15,248 nucleotides of DNA, from the NCBI GenBank assembly GCA_036939355.1, contig JALLAP010000333.1, positions 1 to 15,248 on the forward strand, given 5' to 3'. Below are positions 6,760-14,636 of this stretch, one piece after another. Each line of letters begins with the position of its first letter. Within the stretch, counting starts at the first letter, position 1. The notes beneath the pieces were generated by a model. It saw nothing but the letters and a program-made list of their open reading frames with translations. It ran no database searches and was not told where the DNA came from. A program made the translations under genes and the position numbers. The DNA is from Thalassiosira profunda (Eukaryota > Bacillariophyta > Thalassiosirophyceae > Thalassiosirales > Thalassiosiraceae).

Positions 6760-7689
6760 TCAAACAGTTGTGCTCGGAGCCGTCAGGTCGACATCGTCCT
6801 CGTCCTCGTAAAAGTACTGTTGCGGCAACGGGATGACGTACCGACTGGGCACCCTCCGGTGCGGCGTCTTCCCACTCTCCTGATCCTCGTCGTCCTCGAA
6901 CTTCAGTATCACCTCCTTCACCCGCGGCTTGTGCGCGTTGCCCACGCCCCCGCTCCCCTCCTCCGCGGACGTCCCCGACGTCCACGTCGGCTGCTTGGAG
7001 ACGATGGCGCGGTAGAAGCTGGTCGTTTCCGGGAAGATGGCCATGACGTTGGCCCCCTTCTCGAGGAACCCCTCCGTGCCGCTGCTGAGGCGAATGACGT
7101 GATTCCACGGGAGGCGGATAAGCTTGGAGGTGTCGTCCTCGTCCTGCACATCGTAGGTTTCACTGTCGGGGTAGAACCTCAGCACATACGCCAAGATCCA
7201 GCTCCCGTTCTCGTCGGTGCGCGTCACCTTGGCGGCCACCTGGTCGCCCTGGTTGGCGGCGAACTTGCGCCGCTTCCACTTGCGCCTCGAGGGGGAAAGG
7301 GCCGATCCGTCGAACGGAATGGAGGAGCGGACGTAGTCGGCGAGGAGCTGGTCGGCCGCCGCGGAGAGGAGCTTCATGTTCCCTCCCCCACTTCCGACGC
7401 TGTCGGTGGAGGGCGCCGGGCGAGGGTCGTCGTTCCCCCCCGTCTCCAGCCGCGCCAGAAATCCCCCGATGGCCTCCTCTTCGTTCACATTGGCCGTCTC
7501 GAAGTGCTGCGCCACGGCCACGCCCAACTCGCTGGGCGGGGCCTCGGCGCTGATGGGGATGCCGTAGTGGCCGATGTACGCGAGCTGGGTGGAGGAGGAG
7601 AGGGTGCGGAAATCGACCGACACGCCGCGGGGGTAGCGCTGGGAGTACTTGCGAGTGTTCTTCCCCGTCTTGGCCTTGGTGGCGCTCAT
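6760..7689 (-). CDS. SGF29: SGF29-like tandem-Tudor protein with SAP30-like Sin3-binding N-terminus
   Basis: 309 residues in one exon from the ATG at 7689; the frame runs further upstream but has no ATG there. Residues about 148-292 match the SGF29 C-terminal tandem Tudor: GDQVAAKV (148-155), WILAYVLRFYPDSETYDV (164-181), VQDEDD, LPWNHVIRL, IFPETTSFYRA (218-228), LKFEDDED and RRVPSRYVIPLP. In SGF29 these pockets bind H3K4me2/3 and recruit SAGA acetyltransferase; FPETTSFY corresponds to the conserved P-x-T-T-x-F-Y segment. Residues about 25-82 are different: VDFRTL, HYGIPI, ELGVAVAQHFE, VNEEEAIGGFLARL. This resembles the SAP30 domain that binds the Sin3 corepressor. Typical SGF29 has a coiled coil there. 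A basic patch RRKWKRRK (134-141) may be a nuclear signal. Divergent from the large chromatin gene. Confidence 0.85.
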   Translation of the reverse strand: MSATKAKTGKNTRKYSQRYPRGVSVDFRTLSSSTQLAYIGHYGIPISAEAPPSELGVAVAQHFETANVNEEEAIGGFLARLETGGNDDPRPAPSTDSVGSGGGNMKLLSAAADQLLADYVRSSIPFDGSALSPSRRKWKRRKFAANQGDQVAAKVTRTDENGSWILAYVLRFYPDSETYDVQDEDDTSKLIRLPWNHVIRLSSGTEGFLEKGANVMAIFPETTSFYRAIVSKQPTWTSGTSAEEGSGGVGNAHKPRVKEVILKFEDDEDQESGKTPHRRVPSRYVIPLPQQYFYEDEDDVDLTAPSTTV

Positions 7690-7991
7690 GGTGGGCGTCA
7701 AGAGGTCGGTGGATAGGAGGGCGGGGCGCCGGGCGGGCGCGGATTTTTGTGCGCGTCTTTGCAAGCGGAAGAAGTGCCTATGTAGCGTACTACGTAAGTA
7801 GGTAGCGGTCCCATTTGACAGAGACCTGGTGGGATGTCGTTTGAGCAAGTCTACTGAGGAATCAGTACAACTCTCGTAGAAGTTTTGGATTTGCAGCGAC
7901 AGGATTTCTCTCGAAAAGGCGGCGGTTGCGATTTTCACCTTCACCTCACAAATTCACGTCCAGCGCATTGCCAGCATTGCACCCCCCGAAC
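7690..7991. promoter_or_regulatory. Divergent promoter region shared by the SGF29-like and large chromatin-reader genes
   Basis: 302 bp between two outward-facing ATGs. It must hold both 5' UTRs and start sites. GTACTACGTAAGTAGG around 7788-7803 contains the palindrome TACGTA with partly symmetric arms. No TATA box is evident. Confidence 0.5.
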
Positions 7992-10900
7992 ATGGATCCA
8001 TCCCCAGCATCTGCACCGCCGCCCCCTTCGGAGGCGCCAGCCTCCCCCCAGCCTCCCACCGCGACGCCTCCCCCGGCCGGGTCGCCGCCGCCGTCCTACG
8101 AAGCGGCGCTGCGCCTGTCCGCAGCCGAGGACACGACACGTGCACCAACCCCGCAGGGGGCCACGAGTGGCGCCGTGGACCGCGACGCCGCCTCGCCCTC
8201 CCCCGCGCCCGCCGCACCTGCCCCCAAGGAGCCTCGAGACGCCCCTGAAGATATGGAGGAGGCCCCTCCCGCCGCCGCGCCGGCTCTTCCGGCCGCGGCA
8301 AACGGCGCACCAGCCGCAGCCGGGACCAATGCGCCACCCTCCACGGCGGCCGAAACCGCCCCGCCCCCCTTCGGCGTCGACCCCCAGGTCCTCTCGCCCC
8401 AGTGCCAGGCCCTCATGTCCGACGCCAAGCAGGACACGGAGGAAAAATCCTCCCCCGCCCCGGCCGCCGCGGCGGCGGCGGCACCCAAATTCCGCAAGTG
8501 CGTCGCCGTGCCCATGCTGGCCTCGCCCCGCCGCCCGCGGATGGGCGCGTGCTCCCAGCCGGGGTGCGGGAGGTACGCCCTCGCCAACGAGTTGGGCGGG
8601 GGGCTGTGCGTCGTCCACGCCGAGGCCGCGACGGAGCAGGAAAAGGTCGCCCAAGGGGCGAATCAGGTGCGTTTGTCATTTGTGTGCACATGATGTGAGC
8701 GTCATTGCTTAGTGTCATTGAACGATCTGACCGAATGTTTCGCCCCCTATCCTACTCCCAACATTTGCAGGGCCTCCCTTCCATTGGCCAACAGGAGGGG
8801 GAGGAGCTCGCCACCCAGGAATCCGCCAATCCATCCGCCGCCCCCTGCAAGTTCAGCGGGGGGTGCACCGAGAGTGCCACCGTGGGGGGGAATTGCCAAA
8901 CCCACAACGACTCAATGCTCGAAGAGGCTGATCTTTTGAGCACCCTTTTCCACTCCTCGGGGGCCTCGGCCTCGGGGGAGTCGGGGGGGGAGGATGGAAA
9001 TAGTGTGGGGAGCGAGGGGGGGATGCCCCGGCCCACCACCATGGGGAAGGAGCCGGACGAGAAGGGCATCAGCACGGAGGAGGACAATCTTCAAGTGCCC
9101 AACGCCGTTACGCTCGAGGAAGAGGACATCGTCGGAGAGCTCCCTCCCGACTACATTTCCCCCGAGGCGCGCCGCGTCCTGGCCAACTTCAAGAAGAAGG
9201 CGGCCCTTCCCTCCAAGAAGAAAGACAAGAAGCAGAGGGAGACGCAGAAGAAGAGGGAGCAGACGGAGAAGCAGAAAGAGAAGGAGATTCTCCTCCAGCT
9301 CCTCAAGGCCAAAACCCCCTCCCCCAGCCCCGATGGCAAACTTCCCCCGGAGACCGCCAACTACCTCCGGTCGTGGCTCCTGAGCAAGCAGCACTTCGAG
9401 CACCCGTACCCTTCCGAGATGGAAGCGCTCCAAATCAGGCACGCCACGGGCGCGGACGGGAAGCAGCTGAAGAACTGGTTCGTCAACAACCGCAAGCGGG
9501 TGTGGCGCCCCCTGATGGCGGAATTCCGCACCCAGCACGGATTGGCGGACGACGAGGCCATCCCCGGGCACCTCCTGGACACGCTCGAGGACGCCCCGGA
9601 GCCGTTGATCCGCCCGGGCGAGCTGCAGGCGGCTGCCAATGGCCGTCCCAAACCTCCCAAGAAGTGCGACGGTTTCAAGCCGGTCGAGCTGACCGCGTCG
9701 GCCGATTCCGTGGCGGCCGCATCGATGGTCATGATGAGCGAGAGCCGCGCCGCGTCGCCCGCCAACTCNGTCGGCCGATTCCGTGGCGGCCGCATCGATG
9801 GTCATGATGAGCGAGAGCCGCGCCGCGTCGCCCGCCAACTCGTCGACGTCCACTGTCGCGTCCACCGAGAGTGCGATCGCGCCCAAGGTGCTCTACAAAG
9901 AGAACGTCAAGCTCAACGTGGGCGGCACCATCGTCCAGGTCCCCTCGGCCATCCTCATGAAGTACCCGGGGTCCAGGATCGCCTCCATCGCGCGTTCGGC
10001 CATGCTGATTGAGTCGTCAGGCGCTCCCATCGCCCTGGCGAACAACTACGAGCTGTTCCGCCACTGCATCTACTACCTGTGCAACGGCAAGGTGACCCTT
10101 CCCCACGACGTGCGGAGGGTGGACTTCGAGAGGGAGATGCGGGACTTCGGCATCCCCTACGACGAGCGCCGCATTGCGGGAGGGAATGCGAAGAATCCCG
10201 TGGGGAGGCCCCGGAAGTATCCCTTGGGGCGGGAGATCTCGCCAACGACCGTCACGCAACTCAATCGGCCCATCATTGTCTCTGCCGCGACGACCTCCAC
10301 GGCGTCTCATCAGGTGCCCAAGTCGGATTTCTCTGGTCCGCCGGAGATGGAAGCGGCGCCCGGCTCCGAGCCCGAGATCGCGGAGATGGAGTTGGAAGCG
10401 ACGGAGCAGGGTACGGAAGAGGCGACAAAGGCGCCATCCCCCCTCGACGTCCTCTCCACCGTCGCCTCGCGCTCTAGCTCGCCAGTGGCTTTCACCGGCG
10501 CCCCTGTGGCAGGTGCTGACGGCAAATCTAAGCCTCACAAGACCCGTTGGATGTGCGGGCACTGTGAGGCTTGTCTGCGCGACGACTGCGGGAAGTGCAA
10601 GGCCTGTCTCGACAAGCCCAAGTTCGGAGGCAAGGGCACGTTGAGAAGCAAGTGCCTCCTGAGGAAGTGCCCCCACGCGCTACAGAAGCCTAAGGATTCG
10701 GAGCAGGACAAGGCGGCCCCGGCCGGCAACACCCGGACGAGGTCGTCCTCCGTGTCCGAGCGCAAGCCCGACATTCCCAACCTCCCGGGTTTGGCTTCGG
10801 AAAAGCGGTGGCGCGAGAACCTGGAGCATCTGCGTCCCTGCATCAAGCCGGACGGCCTCCTCGACTACAGCGTCATCCCCAACGAGCAAATTCGCGGCCG

Positions 10901-13900
10901 CGTCAAAAGCTGGGTCAAGGAGCAGCGGAAGGCATACCGGTTCCGGGTGAGCGGCGAGAAAACGAACATGACGGACGAGCGGTTCGGATTGCTGCAGGAG
11001 GCCAACTTTCCCTTCACGTTCAAGCACTCCATCGCGGACAAGTTCTTCGAGCGCAGCGAGCTCACCACCGTCGCTACCATGAATGCGGCGTCGACGGGCC
11101 CCACGTCGTCCCTCGATGCGCTGTGCCTGGTCACCTCCCAATCGTTTGATGCCATGGACGTGGCGGAGGACGAGGATGTGGACTTTGACAACGAGGAAGA
11201 GACGGCCCCTGCCCCTGATGCTGACGACGCTGCCCCTGAAGCTCTGAAACGAAGTGCGACTGGAAGGCTCATGAGCTGCAACAAGTGCGAGGCTTGCCTG
11301 CGCGACGACTGTGGCGAGTGCAAGGCCTGCCTCGACAAGCCCAAGTTTGGAGGGCCCGGCCGGGCCAGGAGGAAGTGCTTCAATAGGCAGTGTTTGGCGA
11401 AAGTTCACCAATCGAAGGACGAACAGAAACCTACTGCTGCCGCGAAGCCAGCTGCCACGGGGGACGAGGACGACGAGAAGGCTAGCAAGAAAGAAGAAGC
11501 TAGGATGCAGCGAGAGCTCGCTCGGATCCGCGCAGAATTGGACGAGAGGGCGTCGAAGGTGAAGGGATACAAGGCGCCGCTTGGACGTCGCTCGAGCAGA
11601 CGCATCGAGGAGCAGATATTGACGGAAGAGGAGGAGGAGGACAGTTCCAGCGACGAAGAACACTCCGACAGCGACAGCGACAGCGACACGGAAGAAGAGT
11701 CGTCGGACAGTGAATCCGAGACCGAGTCAGAGAGCAGTGGCGACGAGGATGACAGCCACCCCAGCCAGGACCTGTGCGATGCCGTGTACCGGACGGCGAT
11801 GACCGCCGGAATGTCCGGCCAGGCCTTGCCCCGTGGCGTGACTGTTCGCCCTTCGGGCAAATGGGTGAGCTCAGTTTTACTCGTTGCGTCTCAGTTTGTG
11901 TCTCTGTGCCACTTCTCTCATCCCCTCCTCCCCTCCCTATTTCTTGCAGCAAGTGCAAATTTACTACGCCGGAGTGTCGCGCTACATTGGCCTCTTCGAT
12001 AATAAGCAGGAAGCCGCCGCCGCTTACGAGATGGCGAGGGAGTGCTCTGAAGGGTTGGCGGACGACAATCCGTCGCCTCAGCGCGTCAAGAAGAACATCG
12101 AAAAGATTCGCAAGGCAGCGTTCTCGGGCGGTGAGTGGAAGAGCCGTCACATGGCGGCGTCGAGGAAGCGACGCGAGGACAAGAAGCCGGTTGCCGAGGC
12201 GAAGGGCAGCTCGAAGAGCAAGCGAGCTGCCCCAGCTCTTCCGACGCGGAAGCGTAAGGAGCGCGAGAACGCCTCGAAGAAAGCCGAGGGCGCCAGGGCC
12301 AAGCTTGGCCTCAGGCATGCATCCAAGCCACCGGCGGCGAAGCCAGCCCCAGTGAGCAAGAAGGCTGCTCCGGCGCCTCCCAAGGCGAAGAGAGCGAGGG
12401 TGGAAAGGCCAAAGCCAGTCAAAGCATCCCCAGCTCCCAAGGTGGCCAAGGCGAAGAAACCCGCATGGTCGTCTAAGAAGTCCACCTGGGACAACCTTGA
12501 GAAGGAGGCGGAGAAGATTGGGGGCAAGCGTACGTTCAACAACGAGATTTACGAGAGGGCCAAGTCCCTGGCGAACAAGCTGCCTCGCGGCATCACTGTC
12601 AGGCCTTCCGGCAAATGGGTGAGTGCCACAACAGTAAAGGTTCATTTCTTTTCCACGTTTGCCTCTCTCACAGCTATAAATGCCTCTTCTAAACGGCACT
12701 GCAGCAAGTCCAGATGTACTACCAGGGCAAATCGAGGTACATGGGCGTCTTCGATTCTAAGCTCGACGCCGCCGTTGGATACGAGCTGGCGAGAGAGGTC
12801 CTCAATGAGTTCAAGGACGACGCGGTGACTGACGAACAAGCGAAGGAGAACATTCTCCTCATGCGGAAGGCGGCATTCTCTTTCATGGAGCACAAGGGGA
12901 ACGTCGCGCCCATCAAGAGGCAAAAGACCGTGGATACGAAGCCAAAGGGACCACGCAAGCCCCCTCGTGACCGATCGACGGATGCAGTGACGACCATGGT
13001 GACGAGGCAGAAGCCGGCTGCTGCGACTGCGGTCACGGCAGCTCCCACCATGACGACCAGGCGCTCTGGAAGGGTGCACACGGAGCCAGACCCCATCAGC
13101 GACCGCAGCAGCGAACGCAGCAGCGACGAGGAAATGGAGGTCGTGCAAAGCACTCCGAAGGCTGCCAAGCCAGTGCAGCAGCAACCCACCGCAGCAGCTG
13201 CCACTGCACCCACGGACATGAATGTCGACAGCCCACCGTCGCCTTCGCAAAAGATCGTCACGAAAGATCTGCCTGAAGTGGGCCCTGGCTGGACCGTGCA
13301 AATTCGCACGAGGAAGGATGGCTTGAGCAGGGACTGTGAGTATTTGCATTCGCCTTTTGACTGCATTGCTGCGAACAACCCCGCCTCACACAAGGCTGCC
13401 TTCCATTCGTTTAGATTACTACCATTCTCCCAACGGCATCCGTTTTCGCAACATGCACGATGCCTTGGCGCATGCCAAGGCGACTGACAGTGGCGCGGGC
13501 AAGTCTAGCCCCAGCGCCGGTTCGTTTGGCGCGATTGGATACAGGTTCAGCAAGAACTTTGCCGACGAAAGCGGGAACAGCCTTGGATGGTTTGAGGGCG
13601 TGGTCATCGGTGTTGTCGCTGGGTCGGGTGAGTAGCTGCAGGCATGCCCCCTGCAAGNGATGGTTTGAGGGCGTGGTCATCGGTGTTGTCGCTGGGTCGG
13701 GTGAGTAGCTGCAGGCATGCCCCCTGCAAGCTCCTTGTACGATCGCACCATTCTCATCGACCTTATGTGTCTTGTGCTCCTCCAGAGAACATGAGGCGCG
13801 TCAAATACGAAGCCGATGGGTACATCGAGGAGCTCAGCTTGGATGAACTCAAGGCCCTTGCGAAGGAGGCCAATGCAGGAGGAATCCAGAAGCTGCCGTC

Positions 13901-14636
13901 GGTCGCCTCCTCGCCCAGTGACCCGCCTGGCACCGTGATCAAAGATCTGCCTGACTGTGGCCCCGGGTGGATCCTCAAGATCGTCCCACGCAAGAACACC
14001 ACCCACAAGCATCATGATTACTATTACTACTCCCCGACAGGCGAGAAGTTCAAGGCTCTGAAGGCCGCGCAGAGTGCTGCGGCCTCATCTCGCTATCGCC
14101 AAGCGCCTTCTTCCCCAGCCGTGGCGTTCGGAGCTGTCGGCCACAAGTTCAAGAAGCAGTTCGGGGATGGCAAATGGTACGAAGGGGTCGTTGTGAAGAT
14201 TCTGAAGAATTCAGCCAATGGCAACGATCGTCGCTGCCATTATCCGGCTGACGATGACTTCGAGGACCTCAGCCTGGCCGACCTGCGCAAACTCGACGAG
14301 CTGGAGAGCAGCAAGCCTGCGGGAGAGGTGGAGGAAGTCGTGTCCAGCGACGACGGGATGCACAATGACTTGTGCGAGACCTGCGGGGACGCAGGCGAGT
14401 TGCTCTGCTGCTCGACTTGCAATCTGGTGTTCCACCTCGGATGCACCCGGCCCAAGCTCGACCAGCTGCCAGAGGGCGACTGGAGCTGCGCCTATTGCGT
14501 TGCATCGGGAGACGTGAAGAACACGAGCAAACAAGATCAGCAGAAGGCTCGCCTGGCGGTCGAGGAGATCGAGATGCTGAAGGAAGAGGCCGCGGCCAAG
14601 AAGGGATCTCGTAAGAAATCGAAGCGCGTAGCGTAA
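7992..14636 (+). CDS. Large multi-domain chromatin reader: homeodomain, T1, 2 CXXC, HA, 2 AP2, 2 MBD-like, 2 Tudor-like, PHD
   Basis: Six exons: 7992-8666, 8771-11864, 11950-12618, 12705-13335, 13415-13627 and 13786-14636. As written, exon 2 is frameshifted by 73 extra bases at an N. Discounting them, every splice joins in frame and the product is about 2,019 residues. Order by corrected residue number: Pro/Ala-rich 1-170; Cys/His modules 187-209 and 251-270; Lys/Glu-rich helix about 366-402; TALE homeodomain 413-478; T1/BTB-like 574-668; AT-hook-like GRPRK near 679; CXXC 796-834; HA domain 880-947; CXXC 1037-1075; acidic tract about 1152-1196; AP2 1220-1265; Lys/Ala-rich linker about 1300-1435; AP2 1443-1490; MBD-like 1644-1685; Tudor-like 1703-1760; MBD-like 1791-1835; Tudor-like 1849-1910; PHD 1933-1974; basic C-terminus GSRKKSKR. 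A nuclear protein that binds DNA and reads CpG and histone state is inferred. Being two or more adjacent genes is less likely because open frame and splicing are continuous. Confidence 0.82.
8550..8905 (+). other. Two small Cys/His modules in the N-terminus of the large chromatin protein
   Basis: Module 1 is C187-x4-C192-x13-C206-x2-H209 in exon 1; module 2 is C251-x5-C257-x9-C267-x2-H270 in exon 2, so intron 1 falls between them. Both have the C..GC...A...G.C..H spacing of short CCCH repeats found in WRKY19-type proteins of plants and stramenopiles. Zinc binding is inferred. Confidence 0.5.
8667..8770 (+). other. Intron 1 of the large chromatin gene
   Basis: 104 bp, donor GTGCGT, acceptor TTTGCAG, phase 0. 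Reading through meets an in-frame TGA about 30 bp in; splicing joins exon 1 to the frame of the second Cys/His module. Confidence 0.85.
9332..9529 (+). other. TALE-type homeodomain in the large chromatin protein
   Basis: Residues 413-478. LPPETANYLRSWLL makes helix 1; HPYPSE is the three-residue loop extension with the PYP signature of TALE (KN/PBC-like) homeodomains; LKNWFVNNRKRVWRP is recognition helix 3 with WFxNxRxR. DNA-contacting Asn and Arg are present. A Lys/Glu-rich coiled-coil-like stretch precedes it. Confidence 0.88.
9697..9841 (+). repeat. Exact 72-bp duplication around a single N: unmerged contig overlap
   Basis: Copy A is 9697-9768, N is 9769 and copy B is 9770-9841; the copies are identical. 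The inserted 73 bases shift the frame by +1. Upstream the homeodomain frame is open, and downstream the T1/CXXC frame is open exactly one base out of register. This looks like an assembly artefact rather than biology. Confidence 0.93.
9888..10172 (+). other. T1/BTB (potassium-channel-tetramerisation-like) domain in the large chromatin protein
   Basis: Corrected residues 574-668. VKLNVGGTIVQVPSAILMKY, PGSRIASI, ELFRHCIYYLCNGKVTLP and EMRDFGIP match the T1/KCTD pattern VxLNVGG...L...PgS...lFrhil.yL..Gk..LP...dfgIp. No membrane segments follow, so this is a KCTD-like oligomerisation domain, not a channel. An AT-hook-like core GRPRK follows near residue 679. Confidence 0.82.
10554..10670 (+). other. 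CXXC zinc finger 1
   Basis: Corrected residues 796-834 with eight Cys in CXXC order: CGHCEACLRDDCGKCKACLD, then PKFGG and C-x4-C. The KFGG motif that contacts unmethylated CpG in MLL, CFP1 and DNMT1-type CXXC domains is present. Confidence 0.93.
10806..11009 (+). other. Helicase-associated (HA) domain between the two CXXC fingers
   Basis: Corrected residues 880-947. The pattern RW...L..L, a central IP...I, then VKSWVKEQRKAYRF, GEKTNMTDERFGLLQEANF matches the HA three-helix repeat (WVxxQRxxY...MTxxRxxxLxxxxF). No helicase motor is present. It is probably a DNA-binding helical bundle. Confidence 0.75.
11277..11393 (+). other. CXXC zinc finger 2
   Basis: Corrected residues 1037-1075, the same 39-residue length as finger 1. 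Eight Cys: CNKCEACLRDDCGECKACLD, PKFGG, C-x4-C. It is near identical to finger 1 in the N-terminal half and clearly different after KFGG, consistent with an internal duplication. A Glu/Ser/Asp tract (about 11622-11755) follows. Confidence 0.93.
11826..12048 (+). other. AP2/ERF-like DNA-binding domain 1 (split by intron 2)
   Basis: LPRGVTVRPSGKW (1220-1232) ends exon 2 and QVQIYYAGVSRYIGLFD begins exon 3, followed by EAAAAYEMARE. This is the AP2 pattern RPxGKWxxxIxxxGxxxxxGxFdxxxeAAxAYexA. The intron lies directly after the Trp codon. Confidence 0.85.
11865..11949 (+). other. Intron 2 of the large chromatin gene
   Basis: 85 bp, donor GTGAGC, acceptor CTTGCAG, phase 0, directly after the Trp of RPSGKW in AP2 domain 1. 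Confidence 0.93.
12580..12800 (+). other. AP2/ERF-like DNA-binding domain 2 (split by intron 3)
   Basis: LPRGITVRPSGKW (1443-1455) ends exon 3 and QVQMYYQGKSRYMGVFD begins exon 4, followed by AAVGYELARE. It is a close copy of domain 1, with the intron at the same codon and phase. The Lys/Ala/Pro-rich linker between the two domains resembles a histone H1 tail. Confidence 0.85.
12619..12704 (+). other. Intron 3 of the large chromatin gene
   Basis: 86 bp, donor GTGAGT, acceptor ACTGCAG, phase 0, directly after the Trp of RPSGKW in AP2 domain 2. Same position as intron 2 in the first copy. Confidence 0.93.
13336..13414 (+). other. Intron 4 of the large chromatin gene
   Basis: 79 bp, donor GTGAGT, acceptor CGTTTAG, phase 1. 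The joined codon T|AT restores DYYYHSP, matching DYYYYSP in the second MBD-like copy. Confidence 0.88.
13586..13730 (+). repeat. Exact 72-bp duplication around a single N: second unmerged contig overlap
   Basis: Copy A is 13586-13657, N is 13658 and copy B is 13659-13730, all identical. It spans the 3' end of exon 5 and the start of intron 5. The overlap length equals that of the first N site, pointing to a fixed assembler overlap. Confidence 0.93.
13628..13785 (+). other. Intron 5 of the large chromatin gene (enlarged in this text by an assembly duplication)
   Basis: 158 bp as written, donor GTGAGT, acceptor CTCCAG, phase 1. Discounting the 73 extra bases around the N gives 85 bp, like introns 2 and 3. 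The joined codon G|AG continues into NMRRVKYEADGY. Confidence 0.85.
13947..14303 (+). other. MBD-like plus Tudor-like unit 2
   Basis: MBD-like, 1791-1835: LPDCGPGWILKIVPRKN, then DYYYYSPTGEKFK. Leu stands at the post-GW arginine position and Lys replaces the FR arginine, so methyl-CpG affinity may be altered. Tudor-like, 1849-1910: FGAVGHKFKKQF, KWYEGVVVKIL, FEDLSLADLRKL. The unit repeats the order of unit 1 but has no intron. Confidence 0.7.
14373..14498 (+). other. PHD finger at the C-terminus of the large chromatin protein
   Basis: C4HC3 order from C1933 to C1974: CETC, CSTC in ELLCCSTC, FHLGC and WSCAYC, with LPEGDW before the last pair. The GDAGELLCC core with no aromatic cage residue resembles AIRE/BHC80-type PHD fingers that prefer unmodified H3K4; that specificity is inference. 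Confidence 0.92.

Follow-up and report, generated by a model that had tools for sequence, protein, structure and literature searches.

The vertebrate protein MBD1 carries a methyl-CpG-binding domain (MBD) and several CXXC fingers on one chain and, to our knowledge, has no homeodomain, T1, HA, AP2 or PHD. A working DNA-binding loop is absent from two of its three CXXC fingers, according to a section of PMC3685328. In UHRF1/UHRF2 and in PHF1/MTF2, a Tudor domain is located near a PHD finger. UHRF1 reads hemimethylated DNA by means of its SRA domain and is also a RING ligase. MEIS/PKNOX factors have a TALE homeodomain. In diatoms, some of the DNMT5b enzymes have N-terminal methyl-CpG-binding and Tudor domains, as described in part of the text of PMC9998398.

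A 15,248-nt stretch of the genome of the diatom Thalassiosira profunda is termed the window here. It contains a gene whose very large predicted protein product combines modules of nine kinds that would read DNA, its methylation or histones, several of them with altered key residues. Each module is known, and CXXC and MBD are already joined in MBD1. The likeness to MBD1 is one of layout, i.e. an MBD and several CXXC fingers in one chain; unlike the MBD1 fingers, those of the window protein have KFGG without the glutamine. The window protein joins MBDs with Tudor-like domains, and some DNMT5b join methyl-CpG-binding and Tudor domains, but the latter are SNF2/methyltransferase enzymes; no methyltransferase domain was found by Pfam in the window protein.

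The initial annotation knew of no described protein with this set of domains, and in the open-licence literature searched no description of the set or of its order was found. No paper was found in that literature on diatom proteins joining CXXC with methyl-CpG or homeodomain reading, nor one that connects diatoms or stramenopiles with CXXC. The accessible sections of PMC3145265 have no mention of CXXC, MBD or PHD, and those of PMC4827209 none of CXXC. The terms “MBD” and “CXXC” are absent from the accessible main text of PMC9998398, though methyl-CpG-binding domains in DNMT5b are mentioned there. Orthologues of the window protein are deposited publicly as hypothetical or unnamed proteins; thus the sequence is not new, but its description may be.

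Gene structure and assembly joins

Splicing of positions 7992–14636 (plus strand) at GT..AG sites yields exactly 2,019 residues followed by a stop codon. This agrees with the initial annotation, which had six exons joined in frame into one protein of about 2,019 residues. The protein looks real because related diatoms have similar proteins, which align over much of its length. The proposed domain list and order in a single gene are supported as well, and relatives display a similar layout.

Two assembly joins lie inside the gene, at 9697–9841 and 13586–13730. Each consists of a 72-nt copy, an N (positions 9769 and 13658, respectively) and an identical 72-nt copy, and the second join lies across the last intron's 5′ splice site. 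Removal of the N and one 72-nt copy at the 9769 join preserves the reading frame. Among the loci fetched by then, 11 of 15 N rows show a 72-nt duplication around the N, a count that includes the window and overlapping loci; with the window's two rows removed and overlapping loci merged, the duplication is present at seven further distinct places, and four Ns are without it. We read the joins with 72-nt copies as unmerged contig overlaps, a recurrent habit of this assembly.

A domain search, which had been proposed as a check on the initial annotation, gave Pfam scores over the cut-off for Homeobox, T1, both CXXC, both MBD and PHD. The AP2, HA and Tudor domains scored below their cut-offs and are supported by relatives, profile comparison or fold model. 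There is no catalytic Pfam domain in the 2,019 amino acid protein at E-values up to 1. The suggested progression from DNA readers through CpG readers to histone readers is only roughly followed: the AP2 pair comes after HA and the two CXXC fingers, and the MBDs alternate with the Tudors. The T1-CXXC-HA-CXXC stretch is single in its own assembly; nine other matches consist of one domain, with or without a flank.

Conserved stretches are also found between domains, near residues 536 (ADSVAAA), 689 (ISPTTVTQL), 757 (SPLDLLS), 980 (SSLDLLCSITSQSF) and 1115 (the coiled-coil-like ELARIRAELDAKA), all given as consensus forms. These short stretches may represent partner-binding motifs.

Relatives in other diatoms

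A protein search that scored 7,982 candidates yielded five relatives (P0001–P0005) and four unrelated PHD proteins. P0002 is from Thalassiosira sp. AJA248-18, P0003 from Stephanodiscus triporus and P0004, which is partial, from Thalassiosira exigua. The five show 34% to 46% identity to the window protein over 1,396 to 1,684 aligned columns. The same domain order is found whole in P0001 and P0002, with the MBD cut in the gene model in P0003, and in part in P0004 and P0005; P0005 is without the homeodomain and stops before the PHD finger. These relatives have one MBD (none in the models of P0003 and P0004) as compared with two in the window. A tree of T1 plus CXXC 1 places the window next to P0004 (topology only). 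NCBIfam gave nothing relevant on three relatives.

A profile search, with 120 of 163 matches listed, added family fragments. Among the matches listed, 11 of 17 grouped fragments (P0010–P0015, P0017–P0027) have GKWVS, an intron start read as protein, in their last 30 residues. The window, P0001–P0005 and these 17 form a group of 23 proteins with a pattern-matched CXXC, our own grouping, termed here the two-CXXC branch.

A third search led to a Skeletonema branch, represented by P0130 (S. marinoi) and P0133. These have, in one chain, a homeobox, WW, T1, one CXXC, an AP2-like stretch, zinc fingers, two Tudor-like repeats, an MBD and a PHD. Compared with the window protein, the MBD is behind the Tudors, and HA is not called. 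The order that the initial annotation suggested be sought in diatom proteins is present in Thalassiosira and Stephanodiscus and, with changes, in Skeletonema.

P0001 has 1,875 amino acids on a 6,378-nt contig and P0133 has 1,744 on 6,443 nt. P0001 shows GKWQVQ, uninterrupted by an intron, in each AP2 repeat. P0133 is continuous at the Tudor codon, whereas all 10 fragments of the Skeletonema branch enter an intron there. Since introns are missing where relatives have them, the sequences suggest that P0001 and P0133 are spliced transcripts.

Domains of the predicted protein

All features below are on the plus strand. Two degenerate WRKY19-like zinc fingers, at residues ~187–209 (positions 8550–8618) and ~251–270 (positions 8846–8905), were recognized by alignment with P0001 and P0002; the Pfam cut-off for the first is exceeded in P0001 only. 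A MEIS/PKNOX-like TALE/KN homeodomain at 9386–9499 scores 44.3 bits (Pfam cut-off 24) and matches Meis2/Meis1 in the PDB with E = 5.9e-12. It displays the loop extension and the WF.N.R recognition helix of TALE homeodomains: WFVNNRKR aligns with WFINARRR of Meis, and the Asn and Arg contacts are kept. It differs from the MEIS/PKNOX factors in a loop longer by two residues, and the protein has further modules.

The T1/BTB_2 domain (residues 580–662, positions 9906–10154) has a Pfam score of 24.0 bits against a cut-off of 21.4 and is recognized by both sequence and fold. By sequence it is related to KCTD15 (E = 4.8e-4), and its model resembles the Kv2.1 and KCTD15 folds (E ~1e-5). It would thus belong to the KCTD/Kv class, on weak sequence similarity and on the fold of its model. 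T1 domains also serve as adaptors, e.g. in KCTD proteins. A search for viral folds returned mainly BTB proteins, which match the T1 fold only; no horizontal or viral origin is proposed.

CXXC 1 (10542–10670) and CXXC 2 (11271–11393) both retain the eight cysteines and the KFGG motif of type-1 CXXC domains. Such domains contact CpG via a K/R-Q dipeptide after KFGG, according to a section of PMC3685328. This dipeptide is R-S in CXXC 1 and R-R in CXXC 2. As a control, seven other CXXC loci of this genome were compared: K/R-Q is present in L009, L011, L012 and L013 and absent in L015, L016 and L017. The pair had been regarded as readers of unmethylated CpG; this is not borne out, and a role for both fingers as plain CpG readers was rejected because the CpG-contacting glutamine is absent in each. 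With the fold residues kept and this glutamine gone, the fingers most likely provide general DNA or protein contacts. A tree of single CXXC domains, with support values varying from 0 to 0.97, does not single out either finger of the pair as the counterpart of the Skeletonema finger.

The HA (helicase-associated-like) domain at 10800–11009 forms three helices in the model. Its Pfam score of 19.3 bits is below the cut-off of 28.4, and it is termed HA-like on the basis of an hhalign value of 96% to HA repeats of its own genome; a search of solved structures with HA gave chance-like matches only. The two AP2 domains are at 11829–12054, split by an intron at 11865–11949, and at 12580–12809, split by an intron at 12619–12704. 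The first is below the Pfam cut-off and relatives have an intron at the same codon; the second, with no Pfam call, is based on alignment with relatives. The term AP2-like is used since the gathering score is missed (26.5 bits, cut-off 33.3) and Pfam makes no AP2 call in P0001–P0005. Both introns are at the same codon of the repeat, after GKW. From sequence, it is as if an intron-bearing unit had been duplicated.

MBD 1 (13266–13476) extends across an intron at 13336–13414. The methyl-CpG contacts of the MeCP2 MBD are R111, D121, Y123 and R133, as given in part of the text of PMC8811898. MBD 1 has four of these four, with both arginine fingers, the Asp and the Tyr kept, and MBD 2 (13938–14081) has three of four, with Lys for the second arginine finger. 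The family MBD profile has its best match with human MBD2. MBD 2 looks like a local addition, because none of the relatives compared shows it and its second arginine finger is Lys. Only the window has an MBD between the Tudors. The single MBD precedes the Tudors in P0001, P0002 and P0005 and follows them in P0130 and P0133.

Tudor-like domain 1 (13519–13856) extends across an intron at 13628–13785. Tudor-like domain 2 (14121–14291) is below the Pfam cut-off and is based on a fold model. A search of solved structures with the Tudor alignment gave weak matches, the best being Tudor domain-containing protein 1 (E = 0.036). Few of the VIA matches are outside model residues 113–178.

The PHD finger at 14373–14498 shows the C4-H-C3 zinc ligands in alignment and scores 28.4 bits in Pfam (cut-off 24). 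Its best match is CHD4, followed by AIRE and PHF21A among others. Thus PHD fingers of the H3K4me0 class (AIRE, PHF21A) are among the nearest by sequence, with one acidic position occupied by Ser; as this Ser replaces the CHD4-aligned Asp after CC, H3 binding may be weakened. The proximity of the Tudor-like domain and PHD in the last exon is similar to that of Tudor and PHD in UHRF1/UHRF2 and PHF1/MTF2. In a Foldseek search with the last exon, the best chains were PHF1 (E = 4e-5) and the UHRF1 TTD-PHD (E = 1e-4). The likeness is one of single domains, with the arrangement unmatched, since TM values are 0.14–0.25 and rmsd is >12. Pfam called neither SRA nor RING in the window protein.

Genomic setting

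The assembly shows 14 matches to C5 DNA methyltransferase (three nearly full length), 18 to MBD and nine to CXXC, two of the latter being those of the window. The number of MBD matches suggests an expansion in this diatom. One locus (L033, G000:C515) has an MBD in an open reading frame with Tesmin/TSO1 CXC domains. Another (L051, G000:C49:12853–13176), a gene with LRR and CXXC, shows 54% identity to the window protein over 114 query residues, extending upstream of CXXC 1.

A gene on the minus strand at 6763–7953, which fuses a SAP30 Sin3-binding domain with an SGF29 tandem Tudor, is head-to-head with the large gene. The likely start codons of the two are ~300 bases apart, and a promoter shared by these two chromatin genes is possible. 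On the plus strand, positions 1141–2568 encode a protein with two CRCB stretches, probably a FEX-type fluoride exporter.

Methylated cytosine is reported in four diatoms, including Thalassiosira pseudonana, in part of the text of PMC9998398. The ratio of observed to expected CpG is 1.03 in the window and 0.97 across the 142 kb of fetched loci, which overlap in part. Because CpG is not depleted, methylation may be sparse or located elsewhere.

DNA-reading residues in the two branches

The two branches differ in their DNA-reading residues, though the counts do not represent independent events since many of the sequences are close relatives: the homeodomain Asn is kept in four of four legible members of the two-CXXC branch (window, P0001, P0002, P0003) and replaced in 11 of 11 members of the Skeletonema branch (Ser in 10, Ala in one); the four MBD contacts are complete in all four legible first MBDs (window, P0001, P0002, P0005) and the MBD Tyr is Phe in two of two in the Skeletonema branch; in the two-CXXC branch, K/R-Q is found in seven of 38 CXXC domains (none in the window), compared with 12 of 12 in the Skeletonema branch. 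Without the distant P0024–P0027, which may be paralogues, the count of seven becomes 6 of 30. The loss of the glutamine is not general, as it is kept in P0005, P0017, P0018, P0020, P0021, P0023 and P0026. P0005 departs from a clean swap between the branches, having one K/R-Q finger (with KNGG) alongside a full MBD.

The retained Asn and Arg of the homeodomain, the AP2 repeats, which rank among the most conserved stretches, and the loss of one arginine finger and of the glutamine in each CXXC would be consistent with a protein that is chiefly a sequence-specific transcription factor, acting through the TALE homeodomain and AP2 pair, with chromatin readers that are secondary or degenerating. We consider this unlikely. 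The four contacts of MBD 1 and the PHD zinc ligands are kept, and the Skeletonema branch has much of the layout, yet its homeodomain Asn is replaced in all 11 members.

A CpG-island type of reader resembling CFP1/KDM2, in which the CXXC fingers bind unmethylated CpG through their basic loop and the protein marks active or poised promoters, appears improbable: the CpG-contacting glutamine is missing from both fingers and, across the two-CXXC branch, from 31 of the 38 CXXC domains, even though the eight cysteines, KFGG and the basic loop are retained. In its favor, a PHD is present, as in CFP1, in two of five other CXXC open reading frames scanned, and CpG is not depleted. An artefact of assembly or gene model, i.e. 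two or more neighboring genes fused across N gaps, is very improbable and was rejected, as the two N joins inside the gene both fit the recurrent 72-nt duplication pattern and the same order is present in separately assembled relatives.

A proposed role

With moderate confidence, we propose that the protein is a non-catalytic chromatin scaffold, probably oligomerized by T1, whose DNA-reading duty differs between branches. Oligomerization would allow many weak readers to act jointly. The MEIS-like homeodomain, and perhaps AP2, would select DNA sites, MBD 1 would dock onto methylated CpG, the PHD finger would favor the unmodified H3 tail, and the Tudors may contribute methyl-lysine/arginine contact. 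The conserved short motifs between domains would bind partners. The proposed net effect is that partners are held at methylated chromatin without H3K4 methylation. With its intact CXXC, the scaffold of the Skeletonema branch would read unmethylated CpG instead.

The initial annotation had suggested that the protein would integrate DNA methylation with chromatin, reading CpG in both methylation states. This is supported in part: by its residues, MBD 1, with all four contacts present, may read methylated CpG, but reading of unmethylated CpG is not supported, as both CXXC fingers are without the CpG-reading glutamine. Within the family, a P0005-type member may, by its residues, read both states in one molecule.

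A more tentative reading, which we regard as possible though somewhat doubtful, is that the DNA-reading duty was swapped between lineages, from methylated to unmethylated CpG or the reverse, with T1, Tudor and PHD kept. The Thalassiosira/Stephanodiscus/window side would have kept the homeodomain and the methyl-CpG reader, with CXXC mostly disarmed, and the Skeletonema side would have kept the CXXC reader and lost the homeodomain Asn and MBD Tyr. P0005 would be an intermediate.

The four named members of the family so far are from Thalassiosira, Stephanodiscus and Skeletonema, all of them genera of Thalassiosirales. Homeodomain, T1, CXXC, MBD and PHD modules, together with HA-like, AP2-like and Tudor-like ones, are combined in one protein, and partly re-ordered, within one algal order. 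Of the new points, the residue contrast between the branches lends itself best to testing. The family provides a concrete candidate reader that occurs in several Thalassiosirales and is predicted to differ in specificity between the two branches.
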